A stretch of DNA of 64,000 bases, taken from positions 30,370,501 through 30,434,500 of the forward strand of contig NC_088787.1 in assembly GCF_949628265.1 (NCBI RefSeq), in the 5' to 3' direction. This DNA is from Cloeon dipterum. Its lineage: Eukaryota; Arthropoda; Insecta; Ephemeroptera; Baetidae. A model generated the notes under the pieces. It ran no database searches and was not told where the DNA came from. It worked only from the letters and a program-made list of their open reading frames with translations. This document shows, one piece after another, positions 1,954 through 54,391 of the stretch. Both the position numbers and the translations under genes were made by a program. Position 1 is the stretch's first letter, and the number at the start of each line of letters is the position of its first letter.

Positions 1954-4589
1954 CTAAATTATTCTTAGGTTGACTTTTTCTCGCTCAATTTTGTCAATCA
2001 AGTTGACTCTGTGTACGATGGTCGTGTCGTCATTATTCGTGGCAAGGCTGACTCTGTCATGCCACCACCAATCAAGGCGCCTATTAACGGACCTCCTGAA
2101 GCTCAGGTTTGACTCGGGCGGACGCTTGAACAGGGAAGTGCCATTATCTTGATTGAACCAGTACTTGCGGCTGGCAGTCTTGCTGAAAGCCACAGTCCAA
2201 GGTTCCTTGACAACCTTCATGAACGACAGCCCGCCGACCACGTGGAACTTGTCCTCATTGTCATCAAGCATGATGCACATTCTCCTGTCTCCACCGAACT
2301 GCTTGATCTTCTTCGATTTGAGCTTTGCAAACAGGGAATCCAACTTGTCCATTGCAAAAGCTTGCTTCACCTTGAACCGAGTCAGGTCGTTTCTGCTGGG
2401 TCTCTCGATGGCCTTGGCGAACAGTTTGCAATAGTGAACGCGCTCGTCAAAGCTTAAATGGCCAATGACGCGGCCACCTAACACATGCGCATCCATCACA
2501 TGCAGCACTTTAATGCTGCTTTGCGCATCAGACTCTCCACGCAGCTCTGACACCAGCTCTCCAAACACCAGGGTTGGTGCAGGAAGGTCGAGTTTAGCGT
2601 TTTGCACGCTAACGTTGAGCCATCTGCCTTTGCCGTCTAGATAGTAGACATTGCCACGTCCCACGGCTGCAAATCAACTGGTCATGAGTATTTAATTCGT
2701 CTAATTATTACCAGGTGTGGACTTACTTAAAAACAGTGTGCAATTCCTCGAAGTAGGTCCTGAATTCATAGCGTAGCACCTCCACTCCAGTATTTTCATG
2801 TGGTCCTGCAGAATCTTGGGCGTCAAATTCCAGGAGTGTTTGTGGTAATTCCATTTGAGTGCAGCGAACGCGGCTTCTGGACGCTCAAATTTAGGAACAG
2901 TTCCGCTTTCTTTCGGGATGCACCACAGATCTAAACAGCTCTTCCTCATCTCAGCCTGTTTTGGCTCGAACAAGGTGGAGTCTTGGCAGAATGCTTTGAT
3001 TTTGTTCAAAGAGTCAACCTGCCGCTGGCCGAGCTCGTTGTTTGACATTGTCAGGTACTCTACTAGCTCTTTGTCACCAGCAATAACGTCCTCAGGAACT
3101 ATGGTGACAACTGCTCTGCCACTGCCTGGTGCCAATTTTTCAAACTCCTCGTTGGCAGTCCACATCAGGTACCTCACAGCAGATACGTCCTTTAGTCTGT
3201 GCCTGCAAACCGAAATAATTGTCAATAATACAAAAATGACTGATATCTTCAATCTTCAACTCTCAGAGAGGATAACAATCTGTTAAAATAGGGAGAGAAC
3301 CACAGCAGCTGAAACTAGTCCAAGCAGGAAATTGAAGTGATGATGATCAGCACAAAAAGAAACACTATATTTATTTCAACTAAAAACAGAAATGCTTCAA
3401 CCTCAAAAGTTTTGAGTCTATAAAATGGGTTTATTGATTTGAATTTATTTCGAATGAATAAGGTTTAAATGGTGAGTGGTTCATACATACTTGCAAACTA
3501 GATATCTTTCAGAATTGGCTGGCTGACTTGTATTAGGCCTGAAGATGCAGATTTTATGGAATGCTCTCCTCATCAGCCAAATTAGACCAGCACTGAATGG
3601 AGTGAAGACATCAAAGAGCTTGACTACAAAATGCCCACCAGGACGAGTGATGCTGAGAGCAACCAAGCATTGACACAGGTACAGCCGGTGAGACAAGACT
3701 TCTTGGATATCTTCCTGGCCATCAACGGAGAAGCCTCCGTCGGCCATGGTGAAATGGACCCCTTTGCCGTCCGTGTTTGCGAGTACATGGTTTTGGAAGT
3801 GGCGAATGTTGATTGGCTTATAGATGTTGCCGTCGCCGTCCTTCCCATAGCACGGCTCGAACGTCTCCGCACTTGCTGCGTTGAAGTCCTCCAGCTTGAA
3901 GTCGTGTTCACCGCGAAGTGTGAAGCCAAAGCCCTTGGCTTGCCACCTCTTCCGCCAAAGCACATATTCCGAGAAGCCGCCTGGTCCAGCGCAGATGTCG
4001 GCAAAGTAAAGAAGTTCATTTGCTGGCACGATTTTCTGGCCCTCTTTGTTCTTTGGGTTAGTGAACATCATATCACAGGCGGCATCAATATTTGCCATTT
4101 TAAGAGCAGCTCTGTTTTGGAAAAACACTTTTCCAATGCTTTCAAAAGGATTGCATCTTCCCCTGGCTTTCCTCAACTCTGCGTCGTCCAGCTGGTCAAA
4201 CACGGACTTGGCACCGAGTACTTTCTTCAAAATCTCAGGTGAGCAATATTTGTGCTCGTCGGCAATGGTGCGTCCGTCTTCGCCAAGCTGGATCCAGTTC
4301 CAGGATAGATCAGTGGTCACGTTGGTTCCAGGGAGCCATTTAAGCGTCTCCTTAACCTCGACCACCTCAGATCTCCAATCCCACACAACAGATTGGCTTT
4401 CTAAGCCAGCCACCTTGAAACCCAGGCCCTGACGACTGGGTTGTGTTTTAAGAGCTATAGGCGCGGTGATTCCTTTCTCGTATCGGCCGAGGCCGCCGCC
4501 CTCCTTGTTTTTGGCCATCAGCCGTATGTCAACTGACGACCTGGCCATCATCGCTCGTTTCGTGGCTGGAGCATCGTCGCCGCCCTTGT
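1954..4589 (-). CDS. CMTR1: Cap-specific mRNA (nucleoside-2'-O-)-methyltransferase 1
   Basis: The enzyme 2'-O-methylates the first transcribed nucleotide of capped mRNA (cap 1) using SAM in the nucleus. Exons on the minus strand are 4589-3491, 3202-2727 and 2666-1954, and all junctions are GT-AG and in phase. The domain order matches the family. A G-patch-like segment (KEGGGLGRYEKG) comes first. An RrmJ/FtsJ-type methyltransferase follows, with the SAM loop DICAGPGGFSEYVLWR and the K-D-K residues NRAALK, MADGGFSV and GGHFVVKLFD. Then comes the inactive guanylyltransferase-like region, and last a C-terminal WW domain (EPWTVAFSK...KYWF). The first exon shown opens at phase 1 after an acceptor, so a short upstream exon may exist. 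The first in-frame ATG is at 4551, giving 749 aa, shorter than the roughly 835 aa human protein and lacking its N-terminal nuclear signal. The G-patch is also shortened. Confidence 0.93.
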
Positions 4590-5857
4590 CTGTAACAACC
4601 AGAATGAAATAATATAAATTTCTGAAAGTATAATGATGCCTAGGATTAATATAGAGTAGTGTTCGCAAATTAAACCAGCCGGTTTTGGCCAGGGCGGTTA
4701 AGACCAGATAAAACCAAGCAATTTTTACAGGTCTTACATTAGCATTTTTTTAATTAGTATAATTTTAAAGCATAAAACGAGCTCTAATTAATATGCTAGT
4801 CATTCATTTATTAATAAGGGCGTTGAAAAATTTAAATGCAGCTTTAAAATCATGAGATCCTTAAGGTGAAACAGTTTTCTTCTTGTTTTACATTATTTCA
4901 GTTGGAGGTAACCTAATTTCATCCCATTTTTGCCACTAAAAACAGCTTGGCCGAAATTGTTTTGAAAAAGCTGGCACTACCGGATAGCCCGATGCACACG
5001 GAGTTCGATCTCAAAATACTACTCATTTTATTTCAACCGATGTATGCAATATTTCCTACGATTTTGCATCAATTTCATTCACCTTTCCTAAGCCGATAAA
5101 ATAAAATAAAATTCCCAAAAAGGGTCGTAATAGAGAAACAATTTCCAGAGGTGGCTCCTGAGGGGAGTTTTATCACGAAACCCTACTCAATTTTTTAAAC
5201 TTCTATTTATTTGAAGTTTTATCTGCGAATTTTAAAGAAGCTTCCCAAAATTGAGTTTTAAAAAATTTCAAGAAATTTCAAGCTTATTTACGACATATCG
5301 CTGTGGTAGCCACTATTGGTTTGAATTACACTTGGTAGCGAGCGCAGAATGATTGGTAATCACAATACCTCGGCAATTTTTACCTCTAATTGCTCTAAGC
5401 TACCAAACACGGTTTCAAGCATCTTTTGTGTTTTTTACAATAGTCTTCACTAGGACAAAATTTTACACCATTTGGATGGTTAGAAGCGTGATTTTTATGC
5501 CAACTAGTGTATGCGATGACAATATATGCAGAAATCAAAACTCAATTATCGCCCCAAGTGGAATTAGGACGCCGTGTGATGAACGGAAGCAATATATTTT
5601 GTGATGCCTTATAGAAATGAAGATCTAAATTTATATCTATTGAAGTTAAGCGCTGTAGGGGCGAGCTACGGCCTCAGTCGAGTTTCTTATGTCAAAATAT
5701 AAAGGAATAGCAACTGATGAGATTCTCGTACTCGCTGTGATGACCATCCATTTCTTCCAGTCCATTTTTTTCTGGTAAAATTTTGACCTTGATTTACGGC
5801 TTAATTTCCTTCAAATTTTTATTGTAGCGATTATTCAAACGCACCCTAACGAAACTA
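4590..5857. other. Intergenic region between E2F7/8 and CMTR1
   Basis: This must hold the CMTR1 promoter and probably its first exon, but no candidate exon on the minus strand ends at phase 1 with a good donor and a coding-like sequence. A minus-strand AATAAA near 5819-5824 probably ends the E2F7/8 transcript. The remainder is AT-rich without a recognisable element. Confidence 0.5.
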
Positions 5858-21852: not shown

Positions 21853-23180
21853 TCAATTTTGATACCCGTCTGAATCTTTTTTCCGAAAAACCACTGAAAA
21901 TATGTTGCGGAACCTGCGCCACTTACTTTGCTTGTCCACTTTGGCAGACCCATTTCCCATTTGATTACGCTCTCTAGCTCGAATTTCTTTTACCAAAGCG
22001 TGGAAAGAATCGTCCACGAAGTGACGAAGAGCTGCAGATGTTTCAAAAAAAGGACAACCCAGTTGCTTTGCAAGAGCCTCGCCTTCTTCAGTCGTCACCT
22101 GAAATCATAAAATTCAAACTGAAGAATAATTGAGCATTTGATTTGTAAAATACTGGATCACACTTTGTAAGTAGTGTGCTTTTGTTTCTGATATTAAAGC
22201 AGCAAGTCCCGAAAAGAAAGGGGAGGCCATAAAACTAGCAGAAACTTTAAATAGGCAGGAAAGTTTTAGTGGCCAAAATATTCAAGGATTTCACAACATC
22301 CTTTTTCTTCGAGAAAAACCACATTTCGAGGGAAAAAAACAACACCAGGATGTAAATACTTAAAAGTTGAAGCTAAAATTAAGAACAAACCACTTCGTAA
22401 ACCACTAAAAATTTCTCAAGGTGAAGCATCAACAGGACATCACTTAATCAAATCTAGCAATTTTTCAATTGCTTCAAGCTCTCTCAAGTGCATGTATCAA
22501 AATAAGCCTAATGTGCTGACCTTCCTCTGTTTGGTAAGGTCAAATTTGTTGCCGACCAAAACCAAAGGGATGTCGTCTGTGGCTCTGACCCTGCTGATCA
22601 ATTTTCTGTACTCCACAGCCTCCTGAAAACTCCGTCTATCGGTCACTGAGTAGCAGATGATAAATCCCTCTCCACATCGCATGTACTGATCTCGCATAGC
22701 AGTAAATTCAACCTTCAATACAAATTTTGAAAGTAAGTAGCGTTCCTGGGGAGCTAGCGCACTGTCTTACCTGACCAGCAGTGTCCAGAATATCGAGCAA
22801 AGCTGCCTCGCCATCAATTACAGCCTGTTGCTGATATGCATCCTCTGTCAAATATTTATTTCATTCATGAACAATGTTGCATTAACAAATAAATGTAATC
22901 AAACATACCGATCGTGGGGTCGTGATAGTCCAAGAAACTGTGACTGACAAATTGAAGTGTCAAAGCTGCAAAAGAACAATGATTTAAAATCTAAAAAATC
23001 ATTAGAAAGGGAGATGCTTTTTTGCTTTCGCTATAATTAGAATCAACTTTGACTATTTCGATGTGTATATTTAGATTAACCTGATTTTCCGACGCCTCCG
23101 TCGCCAAGGACGACTATTTTGTACACCCTCAGTCCTCCTCTGGTGGTTTGACCTTGACCGTGTGATGCAAAGTGGCCCAT
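21853..23180 (-). CDS. Ric: Ras-like GTPase Ric (RIT family)
   Basis: Ric/Rit GTPases are plasma-membrane Ras relatives acting in MAPK/stress signalling; the fly protein binds calmodulin. Exons on the minus strand are 23180-23081, 22965-22909, 22844-22771, 22712-22521 and 22098-21853, in phase, giving 222 aa. G-box motifs are present: GDGGVGKS (G1), the family-specific effector loop [16 protein letters not shown] (G2), [20 protein letters not shown] (G3), GNKFD (G4, for NKxD) and ETSA (G5). The C-terminus is basic (KWRRFRNIF...FRKKD) with no CAAX box, as in Rit/Ric. The start was chosen at an ATG with a strong context (CCCACCATGG). A 5' UTR intron lies at 23279-23372. The frame upstream stays open without an ATG. 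It is divergently oriented to the ARL14EP-like gene. Confidence 0.96.
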
Positions 23181-24024
23181 GGTGGGCCCATCCTTTGCAG
23201 AGCCTGGAGTAGAGGCCGAAGCCCTGGGTGATACAATCTTGTGTTTGGACACTTTGAGGCCGTGCAACGAAATGAGACCTGCGAGAGAAAACGATCCAAT
23301 TATATTGTTAAAAAACTGATCGAAAGAAGGGTGTCATTGTCTTTGTGTTTATAAATCAGGATACTTTCATACCTAAAAAGTGTCCCTGATTACAGCCGAA
23401 ATGAGAAGCAAGGAGAGTTTCGAGGGCTGTCCGCAAACATCGAGTTGTCTGCAGAAATCCTCGGCTGAAGAGGAAAGCACCAAGATAATTAGTGCCTCAA
23501 CAATCCCATATCATCAGACCAGTCTGTCTCTTCTCTTCAATTCTCATCAATAACAAAAACAGATGAATTCCTCTCTCTGCCTTGACCCAAAACCTCTTTG
23601 GTTCGGTGGGCTGATTGGTCGAAAAAGAAGGAGGGGTACCGGCGCAAACGTAAACAACAGCCATGCCCATCTTTCTTCTTTCTTATCACTCACAACACAA
23701 ACACAAAACACAACCAGAACACAACTGAACACAACGACAACCTTACCACCAGCACCTGACCAGCACTCACACTCGACGTTTAAATTTTAAATTTCGTTTC
23801 ACTCTCATCGCTACTGGCCTGTACTTTCGGGCCTTGGCCTTGCTGTTTCTGCATTCTGCATCACATTGAAAAAGAACCACAGCAAAAGGAAGCGGACTAA
23901 GGGGAGTGGTAACCCAAATCCAACAAGTAGTGACGAAGAAACGTCCCGTCTACATTATCTGCGCCGTGTTTGCGTTGGAAATTCGATTATAATCTTCGGA
24001 TATTAAGCGATCTTATTTGGGAAA
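23181..24024. promoter_or_regulatory. Divergent promoter region Ric - ARL14EP-like
   Basis: The side next to Ric contains its 5' UTR exons, including the UTR intron 23279-23372. A GATTGGTC (reverse CCAAT) box near 23610 and a GC-richer stretch near 23820-24000 are the only promoter-like signals visible. No TATA box was recognised. Confidence 0.45.
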
Positions 24025-24741
24025 ATGAGCAAACTCATAAACGCGCCGCTCAATGAAAAGGAGCTGACCAACCGCGAGAGGAGGAAACTTACTAGAAAAG
24101 TTTACACCGAGTACGTATCCACACTATCACATTGCTTATAAATTTTAAAATTGTATGTATATTTAAATTTTGGTGCGAACATTTAAAAAGAAACATGCAG
24201 CCCCTAAATTCGCACCTTATTTGATGATTTGGAAACGTTGTAAAATAACACTTTTCGCCGCGACTTTTAGGCATTGCCATTCATACTAATTTTATCTGAT
24301 TCTCAAAATAATTGGCGAGATGTATGTATATGTATATATATTATGTATATGAAATACGGCAAAAACTGTAATTTTTCCAAAGTGGGTATTATTCCAGGAG
24401 TAAGTACGTCGCGCTGTACACTGAGGAAGGAGTCTTTATCGCCACTGGAACTGATTTATGCGACTGCGGCACTCAAGAATGTCCAGGGTGCCACTTCCCT
24501 TGCGTCAAATGCCGCTCTTTGAAATGTGGGCACGAATGCAGGTGAGCCAAAGCATATTTTCATTCTTCAAAAATTTCCTCAGTTAAATTTTCAGGATTTT
24601 ATTTCAATTTGTCTTTTCATGTTTAAATGTGGTGCTAATTTTACGTAATGGTTACTAATACTGATTTATTATATTATTGATTTTAGGAGAAATCGCAAGT
24701 GGAAATATGAGACAGTGAAGTGCGACACCGTTCCTCGTTAA
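24025..24741 (+). CDS. ARL14EP: ARL14 effector protein-like, cysteine-rich C-terminal domain
   Basis: Exons are 24025-24110, 24398-24541 and 24687-24741, in phase, giving 94 aa. After a short charged N-terminus (NEKELTNRERRKLTRK), the rest is the ARF7 effector-type cysteine cluster LCDCGTQECPGCHFPCVKC followed by RSLKCGHECRRNRKWKYE. That cluster resembles the C-terminus of human ARL14EP and its relative ARL14EPL; it probably binds metal, though that is inferred. ARL14EP links the small GTPase ARL14 to myosin 1E in human cells, but insect function is unknown to me. At 94 aa it is closer to the short ARL14EPL form. Its first downstream AATAAA (about 24914) lies inside the antisense exon of the next gene. 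Confidence 0.85.
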
Positions 24742-24826
24742 CAAAAAGGATCTCTAGAATCATCATACATCAGATTTATTTTTCAACCTTGATATCTACA
24801 ATATCACACATACCATGACATGACGA

Positions 24827-25331
24827 CTAGTACAGTGAGCCCTTGTCTTCCTCGTACAAAAAGAAAATTGGAACTTGTTGATTGTTCACAACAACCATCT
24901 CAACGTGTCGAATTAAATAAACCGCAGCTATTCCGTATGCAAGACAAGGAAGGCCTACAAGCGATAAAATTATATTAATACCTTTCAATTCGTTGAATCG
25001 ATACTATATTACCTAAGTTAATGCACTTGATGAATCTGAAAAATTTGTCTTCTATTGTGAGGTCCTGATGAGTCCGTTTCGTACAGTGGTACTTGATGTA
25101 AGGGTAGCAGCCAGTCCTCAAAATGTGATAATTGCTAGCACCAACTTTCCAGTTAAAGTGCGACTTTCCCCACTGATCGTCTTCAATGTCTTTGTATCTT
25201 ATGAAATACGACGTCCATGGTGGTTCATTGCACTGCCTAAGGTAAGCAGAGAGCACTTCTGAGCCTCTTGGTCTCTTCTGCACTGAATGAGAGAGTCTCC
25301 GCACATTTTTCAGTGCATCAAATTTTTGCAT
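24827..25331 (-). CDS. C15orf61: C15orf61 homologue (uncharacterised, probably mitochondrial)
   Basis: Exons on the minus strand are 25331-25013 and 24954-24827, in phase, giving 148 aa (about 157 in human). Hallmarks of the family are PPWTSYFIRYKDIEDDQWG, SHFNWKVGASNYHILRTGC, YPYIKYHCTKR and a hydrophobic C-terminal segment before the acidic end FFLYEEDKGSLY. The chosen start gives MQKFDALKNVRRLSHSVQK, an amphipathic basic N-terminus suited to mitochondrial import. The frame stays open to an ATG at 25460, but that extension is AT-rich and unlike the family. Function is unknown. It is convergent with the ARL14EP-like gene and divergent from ThrRS. A minus-strand AATAAA (24775-24780) lies just 34 bp past the ARL14EP stop codon. 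Confidence 0.88.
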
Positions 25332-25794
25332 CTTGATTAATTCATCTTTGATATGGTATAACTGCAACTGAAAATTGCAGTTTAGTAATTTAAGATCTAG
25401 GGTAGGGTTATTTTTTAGTTCATATTTAGCTCCATCATTGAGAATTTTAATTGAATCCAACTTTTCATAATTTAAACTTCATTTTAAAAACCGAAATTAA
25501 AAACATCCATTTTCTGCAAGGATGTAGTAAAAACATTTTATTAAATCTTTTTGCAAACGGTATAATATTAATTGATTTGAAAAGAGAGAAATAGACGCAC
25601 AACGGATTCGATCTCAGCTCGAAAGACGTCCAGCCACCCTAACGTGACAACTCAGCTGTTAGCTTTTGTCCTCGGCAGTCTATTCAACCTGCAGTTTCCT
25701 GATTTTTTGGGAGAGGGTGTTTCTGTTTGTCAACAATTTTCAAAGGGTTGAAAGGAGAGAAAGTGAAGAGAAGAGGACAAAAAGAGCTCCTTGG

Positions 25795-25802
25795 TGACGT
25801 CA
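25795..25802. promoter_or_regulatory. CRE/ATF palindrome upstream of ThrRS
   Basis: TGACGTCA, the full CREB/ATF palindrome, lies 25 bp upstream of the first ThrRS ATG and close to the probable transcription start. ATF4-type factors induce aminoacyl-tRNA synthetase genes in amino-acid starvation in animals, although the ATF4 composite site differs from this palindrome. Confidence 0.45.
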
Positions 25803-25826
25803 CACATTGTAGTCGTGTGTACCAGC

Positions 25827-28800
25827 ATGGCGGATCCCATGTGCGACGATTCGGCATCGAGCAAACCAGATTCTTCTCAAAAGGCATGAATTAACCATTT
25901 CTATTTAGTTTTGGAATGTTCAGCCGCGTTTATAACTGTGTCGCCTATAAATTGAGACCAAAATTCAACAGGAGGTTCATATCGGTTTGTTAAAATCCTT
26001 TTTAATACATACATACAAATTCTCTATGTGGCCCGTGTTTATTTATAATGCAACCGTACTGAACAGTCATACAATTATCGGCTTCGTCACTAAGCTTCCT
26101 CAATGATTGATAATATAACTTTCAGCAGAAGTTGCATCAGATTTTCGTAGATACATATCATAGATAATAAGGGACTTTATTAAAAAAAATAATAATGATT
26201 GTCAAGTTATTTTAATGTTTGATTATGTATAAGCAAAAATGAATTATAGTTAATAAAAAGTTAACAATCAGTTATCTTTAGAGAGAATAATACATACAAA
26301 AATATTTTAAGCAATGTAATTCGATCTACCCTCCGTATATAGAAATATAAATTCAAATCGACGTGTCTCAATTTCTTTAACCAAAACAGCACATTATATG
26401 TCACACTCTGCCTTTTATTTTGCGTAGCTACAACTTAAAATTTTGTCCCCTCCGCAGGCCAAATAAGTTGCAGTAGAGCGGGAAAAGCTATGAACTTTGG
26501 TGATATTTCAAGCCTTGAAGGGTTGAGTGCCCTTGACGAGCATCTGAGCGATCGCAGCTACGTTGATTCGTTTGAGCCAACTCAGGCCGACGCCAGCTTG
26601 TTTGAAATGATCAGTGTGTCCAAAATTCCGCAGTCTTTGCCTCACTTGTCTCGCTGGTACAAGCACATTGAAAGCTTTGGCAGTGCCATCAAACTGTTTC
26701 CACCCTCAGCGTCAATCATGACTGGAGGCGGGGGCAACAGGCAGGGTGGTGCTGCTGCTCCTCAGGTGAGACCAAGCAGCACGCCCCGGTTTTTTCGTTT
26801 GAATCAAATGATTGCTTTGCCGGCACCTTTTTTGTGTGTGCAAAACATAGTTTGCCGTTCCTTTTAAGTGACTGCGTTTCCTACTACCCCTACTACATAA
26901 TCACACCCTGGAGGTCTCAGCTGCGAATTTTAGCCCGATGGTGGCTCAGCATTTTTGTTCAAATGTGAAATTTGATAGTGAAGGACTAGATGCCAATATT
27001 TTCTCCGACGCTTTTTGATTTTTTTCGTCATTTTTACCAGCATCTGGCCAAGTAGCTGACTGAGACCTCTAATAAACTCATGAAATTATCACCTGTAAAT
27101 TTTATTTTGCTTCTTAACCCTTGGTTTTTTACTAACTTGTAGTGTTGAAATTATCTATGTGTATAAGTTTTTTTCATTATTTAAATTTGTTGTTCCAGAT
27201 GGTAAACGAGGCTACTCCTGGCAAAAAGGGGAAATCCAAAGGAACTCCCAATAAGGGTGGTGGTGGAGGAAATGCCCCTAAAGCAGAACTACCTACCTTC
27301 ATTAATGTATGTTTAAACTCTTTACATTTATATTTCAAACAAATTGAACTAGAACTTATAATTCAGGACCGTTTGGTAATTTGGGATACGTTGAAACAGT
27401 CCTACCTGGACGATTTGGCGGCCAAAAGCCCAGAGAAAATCGAAATCACTTTGCCTGATGGCAAAATTGTTGAGGCTGAATCGTGGCGCACAACCCCTTA
27501 TGATGTCGCCAAAGGCATCAGGTATGATACATCTCCCTAACTCTTGACTTGAGTCTGATGTAACAAACTAATGTTATTTCAGTCAAGGTCTTGCTGACAA
27601 CACAGTCATTGCCAAGGTCAATGGAGTTCTTTGGGACTTGGACAGACCTTTGGAGGAAAGTGCCAAGTTGCAGCTGCTCAAGTTTGATGATGAAGAAGGT
27701 AGAAAACTGCGGAGAGATGAATTATTTAAATTTAGCTTGTCAAAATTTTCACTCTAGCGCAACAAGTGTTTTGGCATTCAACTGCACACATCCTTGGCGA
27801 AGCCATGGAAAAGGTTTATGGTGGTTGCCTGTGCTATGGGCCACCCATCGAGAATGGATTCTATTACGATATGTTTGTCGAGGGGAGACAGGTAATTAAA
27901 CTGTAATTTCATCATTTTATAATTATTGATTAATATGGTGATTTTCATGATCAAGGTTACCCAGTCAGATTACAACGCTTTGGAATCTGAGATGAAGTCC
28001 ATAGTTAAAGAGAAACAGAATTTCGAAAGGCTCGAAGTGCGGAAAGAAGTCTTAATGGAAATGTTCAAGGTGAAGTTTTGTCGAGTCTATTTTTCTCGCT
28101 TCTGACCAAATGTGTTTAGTACAATCCATTCAAAATCCGCATTCTCAATGAGAAAGTGAAAACTCCAACCACAACCATCTACAGATGCGGACCGTTGATT
28201 GATTTGTGCAGAGGCCCTCACGTGAGGCACACTGGAAAGGTCAAGGCCCTGAAAGTCACTAAGGTAAATATAATGCCTTGCCTACAACTTGTGCATTAAT
28301 ATAACGCAATTTGCAGAACTCGGCCTCGTACTGGGAAGGCAAAGCTGACCAGGAATCCTTGCAGCGAATCTATGGCATTTCATTCCCAGATAACAAGCAA
28401 CTGAAAGAGTGGGAAAAGTTCCAAGAAGAGGCAGCCAAGAGGGACCACAGGAAAATCGGAAAAGTAATTTAATCCTTTGACATATACTGGGGGTTGCCTA
28501 ATTTAATCTCCAATAAACGTTTCTCAAATAAAAATTATTTGTTGAACTCGAAAAAGATAAAAATAATCTTTACTTGATGTGAAATGTGGACAATTGAAGC
28601 ATATTATTATTATTATTGATATTTCTTGGTTGCGATGGTTTCCCTACCCTTATTTATTTCAAATTCCTCTACCGTGTTCACTTCACGTTAAGACTAATCT
28701 TGTCATAGTTTCTCAGCTGGCACTTTTCATTTTACAATCTATTGAACAGCAGGATGTATTTCTAATATTTTTTTAACTCATTCTAGGAACAAGAGCTTTT

Positions 28801-30659
28801 CTTTTTCCACGAGCTCAGTCCTGGCTCTTGCTTCTTCCTGCCTAAGGGAGCGTTGATCTACAACAATCTCATTGAGTTCATCCGCGAAGAGTACTGGAAA
28901 CGAGGCTTCAAAGAAGTTGTCTCGCCCAACATCTATAATTCCAAGCTGTGGCAAACCTCTGGCCACTGGGCGCACTACGCTGACAACATGTTCAGTTTCG
29001 AAGTGGAGAAGGAGACTTACGCCCTCAAGCCAATGAACTGCCCCGGCCACTGGTGTGTTCAAGTTCATTTTCCGCGTGTGGCATTGTCTAATTTCTGAAC
29101 AGTCTTATGTTTGACTCCCGGCCGCGTTCATGGAGGGAACTCCCCCTGCGCTTTGCTGACTTTGGAGTGTTGCACAGGAACGAGCTCTCCGGCGCACTCT
29201 CTGGCCTGACGCGCGTGAGGAGGTTCCAGCAAGACGACGCGCACATTTTCTGCACCACTGATCAGGTGCGATTGTTGAGTCAAGAAGATCTCAATTTTTC
29301 AACTGTGTGAACCTAAACAGATCAAAGCTGAAATGTTGGGAGCGCTCGACTTCCTGAAGCACGTCTACTCTATATTTGGATTCACTTTCCAACTTCGCCT
29401 CTCCACCAGACCGGAAACTTTCCTTGGAGAAGTTTCTGTTTGGGATGATGCTGAAAAGGTGAGACCTCCAAAGACTTGTTTATTTTTAAAGCGTGGTCAA
29501 AATCTAATAGGGTCATTCTTTTGTTACTATAGAATATATTCTTCTTTTATTTAAATAAGTGAGTCCCAATAAACTGCACTCTTAAATATTTGTTCCAAGT
29601 GCATATTTTGAGCAAGTATATACAAATTTAAAATTTAAATCGTCTTCATCTAAGTCGCATCAATTAAACCTAAAATTGTGCAATAAATACAAAAAATGCA
29701 ATCCTGGAATTACAGGAAGAAATTTCGGAAAATTGAACATGTTCTGCCAGATTTTTTAATATTTTAACACGCTTTTATTGCTCAAATTCGACCTTCATGA
29801 CAAAAATTCATCTCTGTTTGTTTCCTTTGCTCATTTCATTTTATTTTAAAATCAAAATTTTGTTATGCAGAAACTTCCTTTGTTAACCGTTGTTGTAATA
29901 ACACAAGCCTGAACGATAATCTCATTTCAGCAACTAGCTGACAGTCTGGATGCCTTTGGCTCTCCCTGGACCTTGAACCCTGGCGACGGTGCCTTCTACG
30001 GACCAAAGATCGACATTACCATTAATGATGCTCTGAAGAGACCTTTCCAGTGCGCCACAATCCAGCTGGACTTTCAACTTCCTATCAGATTCAATCTTAA
30101 CTACATCAAGTGAGACAATCTCTCCTTTTCCCCCTGATTCTCTCTCTAACATACCCTTTTTTCAGTGACAACGGAGAGAAGATTCGGCCTGTAATCATTC
30201 ACCGCGCCATCCTTGGTTCCGTGGAGCGCATGATTGCCATTCTGACCGAATCTTGTGCAGGCAAGTGGCCTTTCTGGTTGTCCCCACGGCAGTGCATCGT
30301 GGTGCCAGTGGGCCCGCAGTTTGACACATACGCCGAAGAAGTGAGAAAGAGCATTTACGACGCTGGCTTTGTTTGCGAGGCCGACTCTGACGCTGGCGAC
30401 ACCATGAACAAGAAAATCAGGAACGCCCAGCTTGCTCAGTTCAACTTCATTTTAGGTATTTTATTTGGATGAGGAGTGTATACAGTGACAATAATCCTGT
30501 GCGTGTTTCTCAGTTGTTGGTGAACGAGAAAAGACTGCCCGCACCGTAAACGTCCGCACTAGAGACAACAAGGTGCATGGCGAATTTTCAATTGACGGCG
30601 TCATTGAAAAGTTCAACGCTCTGAAAAAATCACGCACCAACTGCGAGGACACTTTTTAG
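25827..30659 (+). CDS. TARS1: Threonyl-tRNA synthetase, cytosolic, with two alternative N-termini
   Basis: This class II synthetase charges tRNA-Thr and edits Ser-tRNA-Thr. The shared exons are 27199-27306, 27367-27521, 27583-27698, 27758-27891, 27956-28069, 28120-28263, 28317-28463, 28787-29052, 29103-29265, 29321-29458, 29931-30109, 30166-30455 and 30514-30659, all in phase. They encode a lysine-rich linker, the TGS domain ([22 protein letters not shown]), the editing domain ([17 protein letters not shown]), the class II core with zinc ligands in [15 protein letters not shown] and IHRAILGS, motif 2 [13 protein letters not shown], and the anticodon-binding domain. Exon 1 (25827-25883) joins them through a GC-AG intron, giving 718 aa against 723 in human. 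The exon at 26490-26765 can instead supply the N-terminus, giving 791 aa with a GST-C-like domain. A 67-bp intron (30670-30736) lies in the 3' UTR, and AATAAA is at 30799. Confidence 0.95.
26490..26765 (+). CDS. TARS1: Alternative first coding exon of TARS1: eEF1-beta/CysRS-type GST-C-like domain
   Basis: This 92-codon exon starts at an ATG and ends with donor CAG|GTGAGA at phase 0, matching the phase-0 acceptor of the ThrRS exon at 27199. Residues 1-70 ([52 protein letters not shown]) match the GST-C-like N-terminal domain of eEF1-beta and of the CysRS long isoform (LNEHLSTRSYV...SQAD...ARWFRHIE). In those proteins the domain mediates docking to elongation factor 1 or synthetase complexes. 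A glycine/glutamine/alanine linker follows. Splicing from exon 1 into this exon would hit a stop, so it needs its own promoter or acts after an upstream ORF. No other eEF1-beta or CysRS exon is seen nearby. Confidence 0.8.
26911..27070. mobile_element. Small foldback (MITE-like) element, copy B, in ThrRS intron
   Basis: The ends are inverted repeats: GAGGTCTCAGCTG on the left, CAGCTACTTGG... complement with AGCTGACTGAGACCTCT on the right. Unit length is about 160 bp. It carries no coding capacity and lies in the intron between the GST-C exon and the ThrRS body. The terminal motif is shared with 12171 and 54392. Confidence 0.55.
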
Positions 30660-30669
30660 TTGATTATCT

Positions 30670-30736
30670 GTGAGTATATCCTCTTATTAAATTCGCACCT
30701 TACAATTGAATTAAAACTGGTTCTATCTGTTTTCAG
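30670..30736 (+). other. 3' UTR intron of ThrRS
   Basis: Ten bases after the stop codon a donor (CT|GTGAGT) is followed by a pyrimidine-rich acceptor (TGTTTTCAG) 67 bp on. The short distance to the stop should avoid nonsense-mediated decay. Splicing is predicted from consensus sites only. Confidence 0.5.
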
Positions 30737-32160
30737 AGCGCTCGCTCCAATGCATCCCAATTTTGCATCATGAGTTTGTTGCTTGATTTAATTTATAAAA
30801 TAAAGTACGCACCTTTGAATATGTAGTTTTAATTCTTTTCATAGTTATGCATTCTTTGTGTTGAGATAAGGTTTCTGAATAAAATTAATACCCATTGAAC
30901 GTTAGAGGAACGGTGTCATAGGTACTAAAGCTGTCAATAAATATAGTGTGGCTTCTAGCTTAATGAGATTTGTCTCCTCTGGGAGACGGAGCATCTTAAA
31001 GGGAATTATTTGCAGGGCTTCCCAAGCAATAATGGAGTTTGTGACATCACTTACAAGGTGGCCTGACTCGCGGTGGTAATTAGATTTCCAAGTGAGCTAA
31101 CTTTAGCAGCGTGCTAGCCATTAATATTTTTTGTGTCCGCGTTGATCCGATGCGAGAAGCCTTGCAAAGGCTGCTGTCCTATAATATGTCATAACGAAAA
31201 ACGAATCAATAAGAAGTCGAGACTCAAAGAATCGGGTTGCGAGCGACCACCGCTTCCTTTGATTCAAAAACCCATCCTTGTACGGCGCGAGTGCTCTGCA
31301 AGAGAAATTTTTTTTCAAATGTAGTTGGCGCACGTGTCCCATTTACCAGCTATGGAATCAAGTTAAAGCGTCTATTGACCAATGAAACAACTATATATGT
31401 ACTAACGCTCTTTATGAACAAAATGTACAACTATTCTAGTTCATAGGCTCCTTAGTTAGAGCCATTGAACAGCGTCAATGTTTTTTAACAGAAAATTCAA
31501 TTAAGTCTTCATTCATTATTTTTATGGGATGTACTGACAAAAAAGTCCTGTATTTTTTGATCAAATTTGATGTTTAAACTGAAAAATAAACAATCATTTT
31601 TATTTGCTTATCGTCCTAACCGTCAGCTCTTTAATTCGGATGAGTGAAACTCCGCTAGCAATGAGGTCTTTAAATAATTTAATTTCCAAATGTGAATGAG
31701 ATTTAGAATTGATTAAATATTTATAAAAAACTGATTGCATTTTTACAATGCAATTTAAAAAATTCAGAAAATGGCTTAAATCAATTTATTTGTTCTAAGT
31801 TTTAACATTCAGGGATATCTAGATAAAAAATCGTCACATAATGATTTAGATAGTTACGTCTCTCCTCTAAATATTTGATTCTGTTACTTGAACAATGAAA
31901 ACAAAACTCAGATAGTATTAAAATCTCACTAAGATCGAAAATAAATAGTCGCAGGTCCAAGAAGTTCAATTCAAGTCTATAAACGTGACCACCAAAACAA
32001 TTAAAAATAGCTTAAGCACAGTAATACCCCCAATTATCTTTGCGTGGCGACAAATTAAATTTACGTGAGCGTATTTGGATGTGTATAGCTATTCCGGCTA
32101 TTCCCATCCCTTTGTTCCGGCAGCCAGATAATGCGTCTAAATGAGTCTGCGACTAACAAT

Positions 32161-38300: not shown

Positions 38301-39959
38301 CAATAATTCAATCTTCCGGAAGCAAAGAAAATGTTAATTTGAATTTTCATTTCTCCTTGAAAGAATTGTTTTCACGACTTCTTCACGGATAAGACCGCAA
38401 ATTTGAAGATTTGTGCTTAAGGAGATTAAGCTATGATTAGTTTTATCGCAATATGAATCACACGCGCGGCGCGTGGAAAATTGTTAAAATTATAGGTGAG
38501 GAACAATGTGCGAATTTCTCTTATCAAAATGCGCCGACTGCCTTATTTGAAAAGAGAGAATTAGGAACGTTCAGGTGATAAACGTCTTAAGAGATAATCG
38601 ACCCGTAATATGTTTCCTGATCCAACATTAAAAATCGTAATTTCTTTTGTCAGAGTACCGAAACGACTTCTTTTTCGCGTGTTGAACATCAAAACCTTTC
38701 AAGTGTTCCACGCAACGTTTTGACATGGAGTGAACTGATGAAATACTGGGCGAAAAGTTTCATCAGAAACACAAGCAGTCAAACCACTGGCAGGTGTTTG
38801 GAATGCAAAATGATGGAGCCGGGATGGAGAGCAAAAAAGCAATCTGTAGCATGCTAACCTTCAACTCGCTGCGATCGGTGTTTTGATAATTATGTTTCAT
38901 TCGGCTCTGTTAAGACTGTCCCTGGTTCTAAGAAAGTGTTTGCTTTTTTGTTTCGTTTTCAACTCGCCATTAAAAATTCGTAAATGCCAAAGTTTAGTAA
39001 GGCATTGATAAAATTGCTCAACTAGGGTAATTTGACAGTCATTCGTCAGTCAATCAATCAATTTTTGATTATGATGATTGAATATTCAATATACTTTTCA
39101 CAGATTAAACGTTCTAAATCTTAAATTATCTCATAGAAACAAACTTCTTTATCTTGAATTAATCTTTTTTATTAGGTCATCTCAACTTAAGCATATATAC
39201 AATTTCTCAAATCTTCCAAAAAACAAAATTCGTTTTAACCGTTTTAATAATTCCGACAAGCATGAAACGGACGGAATAAGTGCCAAAAATTCACGAGACG
39301 CTGCTCGAAATAAGCGGCGCCCATCTAATAATACGCATCCAGCATGTTCAGCCGCATTTTTTTCAGGAGCTTGACCGCACCACGTGCATATTTAGCGACA
39401 ATCCTGCCAGACAGAATGCACCGCGGCTGAAAATAAACCTCGGGTAGCAGCTAATCTATGTATTTCGAAAAGCGCAGCAGATGAATTTCAACCTAGAAAT
39501 TAGGTAAAAACACACACAAGTCGAATTGTTCAACCGGTGCTTTTTTGGTAAGTCGAGCTCTTTAAAAATAAATAAATTTGGATTGCCGATGGGGAGCGAG
39601 TCTAATTGTAATCTTAATTTTTAGAGCGTTGTTGGAGACACTGAAGTGCTTCTTTTTGGAACGCTTCTGCGCGTTTCCCAAGCTATATTTTACAAGTTAT
39701 ATCTTTTTCGTTAAGCTAGCTATGATCTTTATGAATTAACTTACGTTATAATCAATACCTCTTGGTTTAAGCATGCAATAAAAATGTTATGCTTATCACA
39801 ATAATGATTTAGCCGAGGTGCTATTAACACCATTTTAAGTTTCACAATTGCTTTTATGGATTTGAGCTAATTTTTTTAAGAAAATTAAAGTCGTTCACAT
39901 TATCGGACAAGCAAAGCAATTCATCATTCCATCATAGTTATGAAGTAATTTCGTTTCAA

Positions 39960-40239
39960 AAATTATGCTAATGCCCTGAAAGAATTTTTGTATAAACGGA
40001 AGTTTTACTCTGCAGACGAGTATTTCTCCTATATGCTGGAAATTTATGATGAATTGTATGTTTCTATTTCTGTATTTCTTTTCTTCTTTTGTATTGGTAT
40101 TTTGCAATGTTTATTTTTGAATGAATGTTACTGTATGATTGATTTTTTTTGCAATTGGATGTATGTAATTCGGTACAATTTATTGTGATGAGTTATGTGC
40201 ATGCCAAAAGTCAAATAAAGATTATTATTATTATTATTA
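39960..40239 (+). mobile_element. 3' end of a non-LTR retrotransposon (LINE)
   Basis: A short open stretch (NYANALKEFLYKRKFYSADEYF) resembles the extreme C-terminus of LINE ORF2 proteins. It is followed by an AT-rich 3' UTR, a CAAATAAAG signal and a terminal (ATT)n tail at 40217-40239. The 5' part, including reverse transcriptase, is missing, as usual for truncated insertions. The same UTR end (CATGCTAAAAGTCAAATAAAGA) recurs at 40276-40297. Confidence 0.6.
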
Positions 40240-46696: not shown

Positions 46697-48112
46697 TTAA
46701 AGGGCCAGCACTGCGGCGGCGGGGCACATGGGCGCCGAGGCGGAGCGCGCGCGCGCCGCCTCCTGCATCAGCCGCTGTCGGAAGCCCTTGGTGCCGTCGG
46801 GGCCGCGCGGCAGGCGCAGCACGTTCTCGGGCAGCGTGCGCAGCACGTTGGGCGTCGTGTTGGACCTGGGGCGCGCCGTCAGCGGGCTGGCCGGCAATGG
46901 GAAGTAGCACGCGCTCTGCCGGCGCGGCACGTACGGCTCGGCGTTCACGTACTGGAACAGCGGCGAGTTCTGGATGTTCTGGATGCTGCGCAGCGGGCTG
47001 CACAGCGGCGACGAGCGGCTCGAGCTGACGCTGGACGCGGTCGAGCTGCGTCGGCGCGTCAGCACGTCGAACTCTGCGTCGGAGGCGCACGCCGACTCGT
47101 AGCCGGCCGACGGCGGCCGCTGCTGCTTGGGCTTGGCGGTGCGCTTCTTGCGCTGCTCCTTGTTGTTCTGCTGGCCGCCCGCGGCGGCCGAGGCGGCCGC
47201 GGCCGCCGAGTCGGACTTGTTGGCGAGCGCCAGCACTCGCATCTGGCCCCACTGGGTGAGCGGGGCGGCCTGCGCGCAGGCGGGACGGCGCTTCAGGGCG
47301 CACGAGCAGCCGTCCAGGTCCTCGAACTCGACGAGCGCGCACACGGCGGTGGCCAGCTCGGGCAGCGCGGCCACGAAGGGACGCACGTCGGCCGGCACCG
47401 GGTTGCCCGGACGCAGGATGCGCACGAGCGCCAGCTTGCCGCACGGCGCGAACAGGTCGACGACGCTCTCGATGGTCGGCTTCTCGAGCGGCAGCTCGAG
47501 CGCGACGACGGTGCGCGAGGGCGCGGTGTCGTCGTAGCGCGGCAGCGGCGCGATGCGACGCAACTTGGTGCGCGCCTCGTTCACCTGCAGCATGCTCGAG
47601 CCGTTGGCGAGCGCGTGAGCAACCACGCGCCAGTCCTTGGCCAGGTGCTTGACCCGCTTGAAGCTGGAGATGAGCTTGAGCGAGACGTAGCCTTCCTTGT
47701 TGCGCTTCACGTGCTTGAGCAGGAAGGCGTCCTTGGTGATGTTCACGTCCGAAAAGTAAAACTCGACCTGCTGCACGATGCGGGCGGCCATCTGCTCGTC
47801 GGGCGGTACGAACGCGTCCTCCTCGGCCGGCGCCTCGCATCCGGAGTCCTTGCAGCCCTCCGAGTCGGACGCCGAGCTGAGTTCGGACGCGGTGGAGCCG
47901 ACGCCGAGCAGCTGCTCGGTCGGCGGCGGCGACGCGGCGCCGCCGTCGTCGTCGTAAGACAGCGACACGTCGCTGTCGGTCGACGAGATGCTGTCTCTGG
48001 TGTCCGAACGCATCTTGAACACGCCCTCGAGCAGACTCGTGACCTGCGGGGCCTCCTCGTCGAGCTGCTGCGGCTGCAGCACGATCACGTCACCTGCACT
48101 GGGAACGGGCAT
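46697..48112 (-). CDS. LARP6: La-related protein 6
   Basis: LARP6 binds mRNA through a La module and directs localisation or translation of targets (collagen mRNAs in vertebrates; the fly homologue is achn). The gene is one uninterrupted 471-codon frame. An acidic, serine-rich N-terminus is followed by the La motif at about residues 95-185 (PPDEQMAARIVQQVEFYFSD, KDAFLLKHVKRNKEGYVSLK, SSFKRVKHLAKDWRVVAHAL). Next come the RRM at about 195-285 (CGKLALVRILRPGNPVPADV, CALVEFED), a low-complexity basic and serine-rich region, and the SUZ-C motif NVLRLPRGPDGTKGFRQRL near the C-terminus. All family hallmarks are present and in order. The gene is strikingly GC-rich and intronless, unlike every other gene in the window. 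Minus-strand AATAAA signals near 46250-46280 would give a 3' UTR of about 430 nt. Confidence 0.95.
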   Translation of the reverse strand: MPVPSAGDVIVLQPQQLDEEAPQVTSLLEGVFKMRSDTRDSISSTDSDVSLSYDDDGGAASPPPTEQLLGVGSTASELSSASDSEGCKDSGCEAPAEEDAFVPPDEQMAARIVQQVEFYFSDVNITKDAFLLKHVKRNKEGYVSLKLISSFKRVKHLAKDWRVVAHALANGSSMLQVNEARTKLRRIAPLPRYDDTAPSRTVVALELPLEKPTIESVVDLFAPCGKLALVRILRPGNPVPADVRPFVAALPELATAVCALVEFEDLDGCSCALKRRPACAQAAPLTQWGQMRVLALANKSDSAAAAASAAAGGQQNNKEQRKKRTAKPKQQRPPSAGYESACASDAEFDVLTRRRSSTASSVSSSRSSPLCSPLRSIQNIQNSPLFQYVNAEPYVPRRQSACYFPLPASPLTARPRSNTTPNVLRTLPENVLRLPRGPDGTKGFRQRLMQEAARARSASAPMCPAAAVLAL

Positions 48113-48304
48113 TGCGGCGGGGCCGGGTGTGTGATGCGGACAAAAATGCGGCCTAGACGCACACGCGGAGTCAAAACCACACTAGTAAGGCACACGGGCG
48201 CCGCGGCGAGTGCAGACTACTGCTCTCTGCTGCTGCTGGAGGTGAAGTGTTCCACTGCTGGTGGCTCGCGAGAGTTGTTGCACGGCCCACCCGCCGCCTC
48301 TGCC

Positions 48305-53891: not shown

Positions 53892-54125
53892 TTAATTACA
53901 AAAATAAATATCAAGCGATACTACATTTTTGACGTAAGTCAAATATGTATCAACATCATCAAATTTCAGTTGATAAACAAACTTGTGCAGCGCTTCTGTG
54001 AACTCTTTATACCTAGGCTCTAGGCGAAGCGGAATTGGTAAAGTATTGTAACAATGTGTTGCAAATTGGAATAATGAATGCACTTTTAGTAGGTTGGTTA
54101 TGATCGTCCACTGCACGTGAAACAT
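53892..54125 (-). CDS. Possible terminal exon of an unrecognised gene
   Basis: On the minus strand a good acceptor (pyrimidine-rich, ending CCAATTGCAG) is followed by 77 open codons and a stop. Minus-strand AATAAA signals lie about 110 bp further on (near 53780). The translation reads like a soluble helical protein (LRLEPRYKEFTEALHKFVYQ, LKFDDVDTYLTYVKNV) with less simple composition than the surrounding random frames. I do not recognise the family. No partner exon was found on this strand up to the end of the window, so if real it would be the last exon of a gene with a long intron. It may also be a chance frame. Confidence 0.25.
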   Translation of the reverse strand: MFHVQWTIITNLLKVHSLFQFATHCYNTLPIPLRLEPRYKEFTEALHKFVYQLKFDDVDTYLTYVKNVVSLDIYFCN

Positions 54126-54391
54126 CTGCAATTGGAAACAATAGAAAATGAACTTATCCCATAATTTTTAAAATCGAGATCAGTCCAGGGTGACTTTTAT
54201 AATGGAAACAAGCATTTCTTATTCAGTAAAAACTGCAGTTTATTATGAATGTTTTCCAGGGTGTTATGCGGAGCACTTTCGTAAAGGTGACGGAATGGAA
54301 TACATTATCCTTTGTATTTTTAGTGCATTTTTGCATTTTCTGTTCAAGTAAAGATATGTTCTGTGGCCTTTCAATTGATAGTCATTTATGT

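Follow-up and report, generated by a model that had tools for sequence, protein, structure and literature searches.

Directly upstream of a cytoplasmic-type threonyl-tRNA synthetase (ThrRS) gene of Cloeon dipterum, and in frame with it, lies a single exon encoding a GST-C-like domain of the type found at the N-terminus of eEF1B-alpha. The domain and its in-frame position beside ThrRS are near certain, and judging from the sequence it is very probable that the exon is really spliced to the synthetase. The best explanation that we can offer for the whole, and one that to our minds hangs in an even balance, is that this would be a shuffled eEF1B-alpha-type exon which is used alternatively and which docks ThrRS on eEF1B-gamma. 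The analysis covered the whole stretch of 64,000 nucleotides (the window), and the features on which the argument turns are as follows.

24978-25478, minus strand: DUF4528 frame (E=5.2e-47), head-to-head with ThrRS
25827-25883, plus strand: candidate first coding exon (MADP) of a canonical ThrRS isoform, GC donor at its end; it shares the frame of 27199 and not that of the GST-C exon
25916-25984, plus strand: peptide MFSRV...RRFIS, resembling a mitochondrial presequence, with six K/R and no D/E; phase 0 with 27199
26458-26489, plus strand: putative 5' leader of the GST-C exon, after the acceptor ccctccgcag; GCC AAA TAA closes upstream frames
26490-26765, plus strand: GST-C exon of eEF1B-alpha type, 92 codons; domain at roughly residues 1-66, with a Pro/Gly/Ala-rich stretch behind it
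27199-27306, plus strand: ThrRS exon 2, phase 0, first codon ATG, with a Lys/Gly-rich stretch
27367-30659, plus strand: ThrRS body in 12 further exons, with TGS, tRNA_SAD, class II core and HGTP anticodon domains

The synthetase gene is complete on the plus strand, from the exon at 27199-27306 to a stop at 30659, and its 13 exons, joined over GT-AG borders, give 699 codons with no internal stop. All four of its domains score above the Pfam cut-offs and follow one another in the usual order. The NCBIfam thrS model TIGR00418 is matched at 667.9 bits (cut-off 383.65), and residues 299-694 match human TARS1 (4hwt_A) at E=1.1e-206 and 691.7 bits. By its domains the gene product is a eukaryotic cytoplasmic ThrRS.

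The first-pass annotation of this DNA had described an ATG-initiated exon of 92 codons, ending at phase 0 and lying in phase directly upstream of ThrRS, and both points are borne out. From the ATG at 26490 the reading frame is free of stops up to its last codon, CAG at 26763-26765, which is followed by gtgaga. This phase 0 end reads in frame into the ATG that opens exon 2 at 27199, and on through the intact 699-aa ThrRS, to give a joined frame of 791 aa. When splice sites were scored with matrices built from the gene's other 12 donors and 12 acceptors, the donor CAG/gtgaga ranked first among the 3254 GT sites on the plus strand of the window. The likely acceptor, ccctccgcag/GCC at 26458, is 32 nt before the ATG and scores 3.8, towards the lower limit of the range of the training acceptors (3.0-14.1); 502 of 3363 AG sites in the window score as high, and the acceptor is possible, not strong. 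The GST-C frame remains open beyond the donor, to 26864. The G+C content of the exon is 51.8%, and that of its third positions 55.4% (58.1% in ThrRS), as compared with 20% to 43% in the 13 introns. A codon-usage score was as good as that of the exon in 625 of 1935 stop-free control windows and so does not separate it from them.

The exon had earlier been labelled eEF1-beta/CysRS-like. The motifs quoted in that connection, RWYKHIES among them, are present in its translation and the GST-C-like assignment stands, with the refinement that by sequence the exon is nearer to eEF1B-alpha than to the CysRS exon. In a phmmer search of 177635 distinct PDB sequences the best match was human elongation factor 1-beta (eEF1B-alpha, 5dqs_D; E=2.7e-14, residues 1-66), a homology that spans the whole domain, and the other seven of the eight matches at E up to 10 were antibody light chains with E of at least 0.89. 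The window contains 748 stop-free frames of 40 aa or more; compared with the human EEF1B2 domain, the GST-C exon frame scored 160 and the runner-up 36. Identity of the exon is 29/62 to human eEF1B-alpha, 29/89 to the fly protein and 22/49 to the human CARS1 exon. The exon scores 160 with human EEF1B2 as against 120 with the CARS1 exon, which itself scores 125 with human eEF1B-alpha; in comparison with 5dqs_D the values are 56.6 bits for the GST-C exon and 44.7 bits for the CARS1 exon. The exon opens with MNFGD, and eEF1B-alpha with MGFGD.

A search of the exon against GST_C family profiles, which had been proposed as a check, gave matches only below the curated cut-offs. Five Pfam models of GST type matched and none reached its threshold (Arc1p_N_like, 21 bits against 27; GST_C_2, 20.5 against 24.9; GST_C, 14.6 against 20.7; GST_C_6, 13.3 against 28; GST_C_3, 12 against 21.6), and no NCBIfam model was matched at E up to 1. 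Pfam scores below the cut-offs are plausible for this shortened GST-C branch. A structure predicted from the single sequence had a mean pLDDT of 69.4 (58.5 to 69.4 over five models) and four helices of at least four residues. When the model with mean pLDDT 69.4 was compared with the PDB using Foldseek, 5dqs_D was placed first (probability 1.00, TM 0.63/0.67, E=9.8e-3), and the remaining eight matches had probabilities of 0.08 or less.

The sequence ahead of the GST-C exon has a bearing on how the exon is used. The MADP exon has a good start context (ACCAGCATGG) and ends at phase 0 in AAAAG/gcatga, a donor whose score is 10.2 with GC treated as GT. The dinucleotide at 25883/25884 (plus strand) is GC rather than GT in an otherwise strong context; the intron could be of GC-AG type, or this could be a sequence variant. 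Joined to 27199 the MADP exon yields a ThrRS of 718 aa, while translation that starts at the exon 2 ATG yields one of 699 aa (MVNEATP...). Joined to 26458 it runs into a stop after 21 codons, and the GST-C ATG is the first ATG in the GST-C exon. The upstream peptides fit the ThrRS frame and not the frame of the GST-C exon, as would be expected for exclusive N-termini. The MFSRV peptide is attractive in composition and phase as a mitochondrial-presequence exon, but its donor TCG/gtttgt is weak, at 0.35 where the gene's 12 donors range from 6.8 to 10.9, and it is kept as a side observation only. In 28.5 kb, both strands included, there are seven frames with at least five K/R, no D/E and a donor score of at least 1, nested starts being counted apart. 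The DUF4528 frame, presumably a C15orf61-like gene, lies head-to-head with ThrRS, and this suggests a ThrRS promoter between about 25.5 and 25.8 kb, which is possibly common to the two. With a promoter there, the GST-C exon would fall inside the ThrRS transcription unit.

By the logic of its frames this layout fits a choice between N-termini, giving either canonical ThrRS or GST-C-ThrRS. The alternative ThrRS isoform proposed in the first-pass annotation gains circumstantial support here, since ATG is the first codon of exon 2 and the upstream peptides are in the ThrRS frame only. A serious rival to alternative use, although on balance an unlikely one, is that the GST-C exon is constitutive, so that every cytoplasmic ThrRS of the lineage carries the domain and the frames of the MADP and MFSRV peptides are open by chance. 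The top score of the GST-C donor on the plus strand would suit this, as would the rare GC donor that the MADP exon needs and the score of the MFSRV donor, which between them deprive any skipping isoform that begins in a coding exon of a strong GT donor. Constitutive use sits less easily with an exon 2 that begins exactly with ATG, with the good start context and exact phase of the MADP exon, and with a GST-C acceptor that is only moderate.

Other origins of the exon were considered by searching the window with tblastn for eEF1B proteins and an N-terminal portion of CARS1, and at E below 0.05 only the GST-C exon was found. The next-best match had an E of 0.065 and was on the other strand, at 17.5 kb. 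The acidic linker and C-terminal exchange domain of eEF1B-alpha were absent from the window by the same method and threshold, with full-length EEF1B2 and fly eEF1-beta as queries. A retrocopied eEF1B was rejected, as the window holds no eEF1B sequence beyond the domain at tblastn E below 0.05, a search in which the CARS1 query was the N-terminal part only. There are no tandem arrays in 24000-31000, and 25480-27400 contains only weak, short direct repeats (four two-copy families of 19-22 nt, with 77-84% identity). Four pattern scans of viral, bacterial and archaeal contigs returned 6, 11, 53 and 76 matches and no confirmed relative, a result that says nothing about animals. We regard it as improbable that the exon is dead, that is, a piece of an eEF1B or CysRS gene which was copied to the 5' region of ThrRS and left unspliced. 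Codon usage that does not mark the exon as coding and the mediocre acceptor at 26458 would be in keeping with this. A copy long out of use, however, would hardly keep 92 open codons and its degree of identity to human EEF1B2, and the exact phase, the top-ranked donor, the lack of trailing eEF1B sequence and of tandem repeats, and the weakness and shortness of the nearby direct repeats argue against it as well.

If the exon is instead genuine, a shuffled copy of the GST-C-like domain that eEF1B-alpha has at its N-terminus, now spliced to the N-terminal end of ThrRS, its effect on the protein can be proposed. We infer splicing of the exon in vivo and its alternative rather than constitutive use. 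Inclusion would close the upstream frames and start translation at MNFGD, giving the 791-aa GST-C-ThrRS, and skipping would give a canonical ThrRS of 699 aa (MVNEATP...) or 718 aa (MADP...). Residues 67-92 and most of exon 2, which are rich in Gly, Pro and Lys, probably form a flexible, Gly-rich tether of roughly 50-60 residues between the GST-C domain and ThrRS. Through this domain the long form may, like eEF1B-alpha, dock on the GST-like domain of eEF1B-gamma, and docking would place the production of threonyl-tRNA beside the recycling of eEF1A, where tRNA might be handed over. According to its title, entry 5DQS is a complex between the GST-like domains of human elongation factor 1B alpha and gamma, and eEF1B-gamma is the predicted partner because this entry holds the eEF1B-alpha domain together with the eEF1B-gamma domain; PMC10452860 names it as an unpublished crystal structure. 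EEF1B and VARS are described as carrying GST-C domains in eEF1H (available text of PMC12632765). The GST domain of ValRS, in turn, is reported in PMC10452860 to bind eEF1B-beta and not gamma, so that the presence of such a domain in the eEF1 complex does not by itself imply that gamma is the docking site.

The earlier proposal was that ThrRS is recruited to eEF1 or to the multi-synthetase complex. Its first half is a reasonable reading of the homology, and for the second we found no specific support. That ThrRS is tethered by the domain to the multi-synthetase complex, by way of the GST domains of MetRS, GluProRS, AIMP2 and AIMP3, rather than to eEF1B-gamma, is distinctly doubtful, slightly more so than a dead exon. 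GST-type domains do occur in that complex and help to build it, according to the available part of PMC11224427, but the sequence similarity of the exon points to eEF1B-alpha and no chain of the complex is among the eight PDB matches at E up to 10. That the exon belongs to a separate gene ahead of ThrRS (a free GST-C protein, eEF1B or CysRS) was rejected and is scarcely credible: the frame is open past the donor, to be sure, but the window has no other eEF1B or N-terminal CARS1 match at E below 0.05, and the first plus-strand exon to follow it with a fitting phase is exon 2 of ThrRS.

Among the means by which synthetases enter the eEF1 and multi-synthetase complexes are GST-type domains. If ThrRS has gained a GST-C domain on an exon of its own, this would provide an independent natural experiment that bears on whether eEF1 docking helps tRNA hand-over; one gene making docked and undocked forms would allow that docking to be tested, and the docking domain would be seen to move between synthetases by exon shuffling. 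A more elaborate scheme, which we put forward only tentatively and hold to be somewhat less probable than constitutive use, is that splicing within one ThrRS gene switches between a plain cytoplasmic N-terminus, a possibly mitochondrial one (MFSRV...RRFIS) and a GST-C form in competition with eEF1B-alpha for eEF1B-gamma. In that case the eEF1 complex would have ThrRS as a regulated member, and the exon would be a second independent invention of the CARS1 docking exon, in the other synthetase class. ThrRS would perhaps also be subject to the glutathione-dependent disassembly reported for the eEF1 complex; binding of oxidized glutathione to EEF1G, triggering disassembly, is the subject of a section heading in the preprint PMC12632765.

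Several other frames were observed in the window, whose G+C content is 40.0%, whose spliced genes mark it as eukaryotic and in which tRNA and Rfam scans found nothing. A frame for the C-terminal domain of an ARF7 effector protein (PF14949) is located at 24372-24542 on the same strand as ThrRS and just upstream of it, and a Ras-family frame (PF00071) that presumably resembles Ric/RIT is at 22500-22766 on the minus strand. Also on the minus strand are an open frame of 494 codons at 46700-48181, with 70% G+C and La and SUZ-C motifs, which we take to be a LARP6-like gene, and a frame of 422 codons at 3484-4749 with G-patch and FtsJ methyltransferase domains, which is presumably cap methyltransferase 1-like. 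Putative 3' ends of LINE reverse transcriptases were recognized by eye at 39949-40188 (plus strand) and 53895-54167 (minus strand).

With eEF1B-alpha (human EEF1B2) the GST-C exon has in common the domain itself, the MxFGD start, the identity to the human sequence noted above and the best PDB match, whereas the domain here continues into a Gly-rich stretch and ThrRS, where eEF1B-alpha has an acidic linker and exchange domain. The long isoform of human CysRS (CARS1) has an alternatively spliced GST-C exon, which is an internal in-frame cassette. Both it and the gene described here have an N-terminal GST-C domain on one exon of a synthetase, plausibly an alternative one in our case, and the two exons are identical at 22 of 49 aligned residues. 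They differ in the synthetase and its class, ThrRS being of class II, and in that the exon here supplies a start codon itself and puts an end to the upstream frames.

Among other synthetases ValRS (VARS1) of eEF1H likewise bears a GST-type domain, and in the eEF1 complex it is reported to bind eEF1B-beta (available parts of PMC10452860 and PMC12632765). Vertebrate ThrRS-L (TARSL2) has gained an N-terminal extension that recruits it to a translation complex, but as described in the accessible text of PMC6794377 this extension is ArgRS-like, with leucine zippers and AIMP1, belongs to a duplicated gene and has no GST domain, unlike the exon here. Drosophila ThrRS (CG5353) also has one gene and multiple forms: it is dual-localised, with at least two polypeptides of which the longer is predicted to be mitochondrial, and GST is not mentioned in the available text of that fly synthetase survey (PMC4826098). 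The available domain table of AARS Online gives GST for CysRS, GluRS-E, MetRS and ValRS and does not name ThrRS. A review (PMC3359775) counts four GST-bearing synthetases in insects, their names not being given in the part available, and ThrRS could be among them. No ThrRS with a GST domain was found among the matches listed in the literature searched, which covered titles, abstract beginnings and passages, and the first-pass remark that no described ThrRS of this kind was known agrees with these sources as far as they extend. Predicted animal proteins with a GST-C-ThrRS architecture may well have been overlooked so far. Synthetases that bear GST domains are already known, and ThrRS as their carrier would be the new element.
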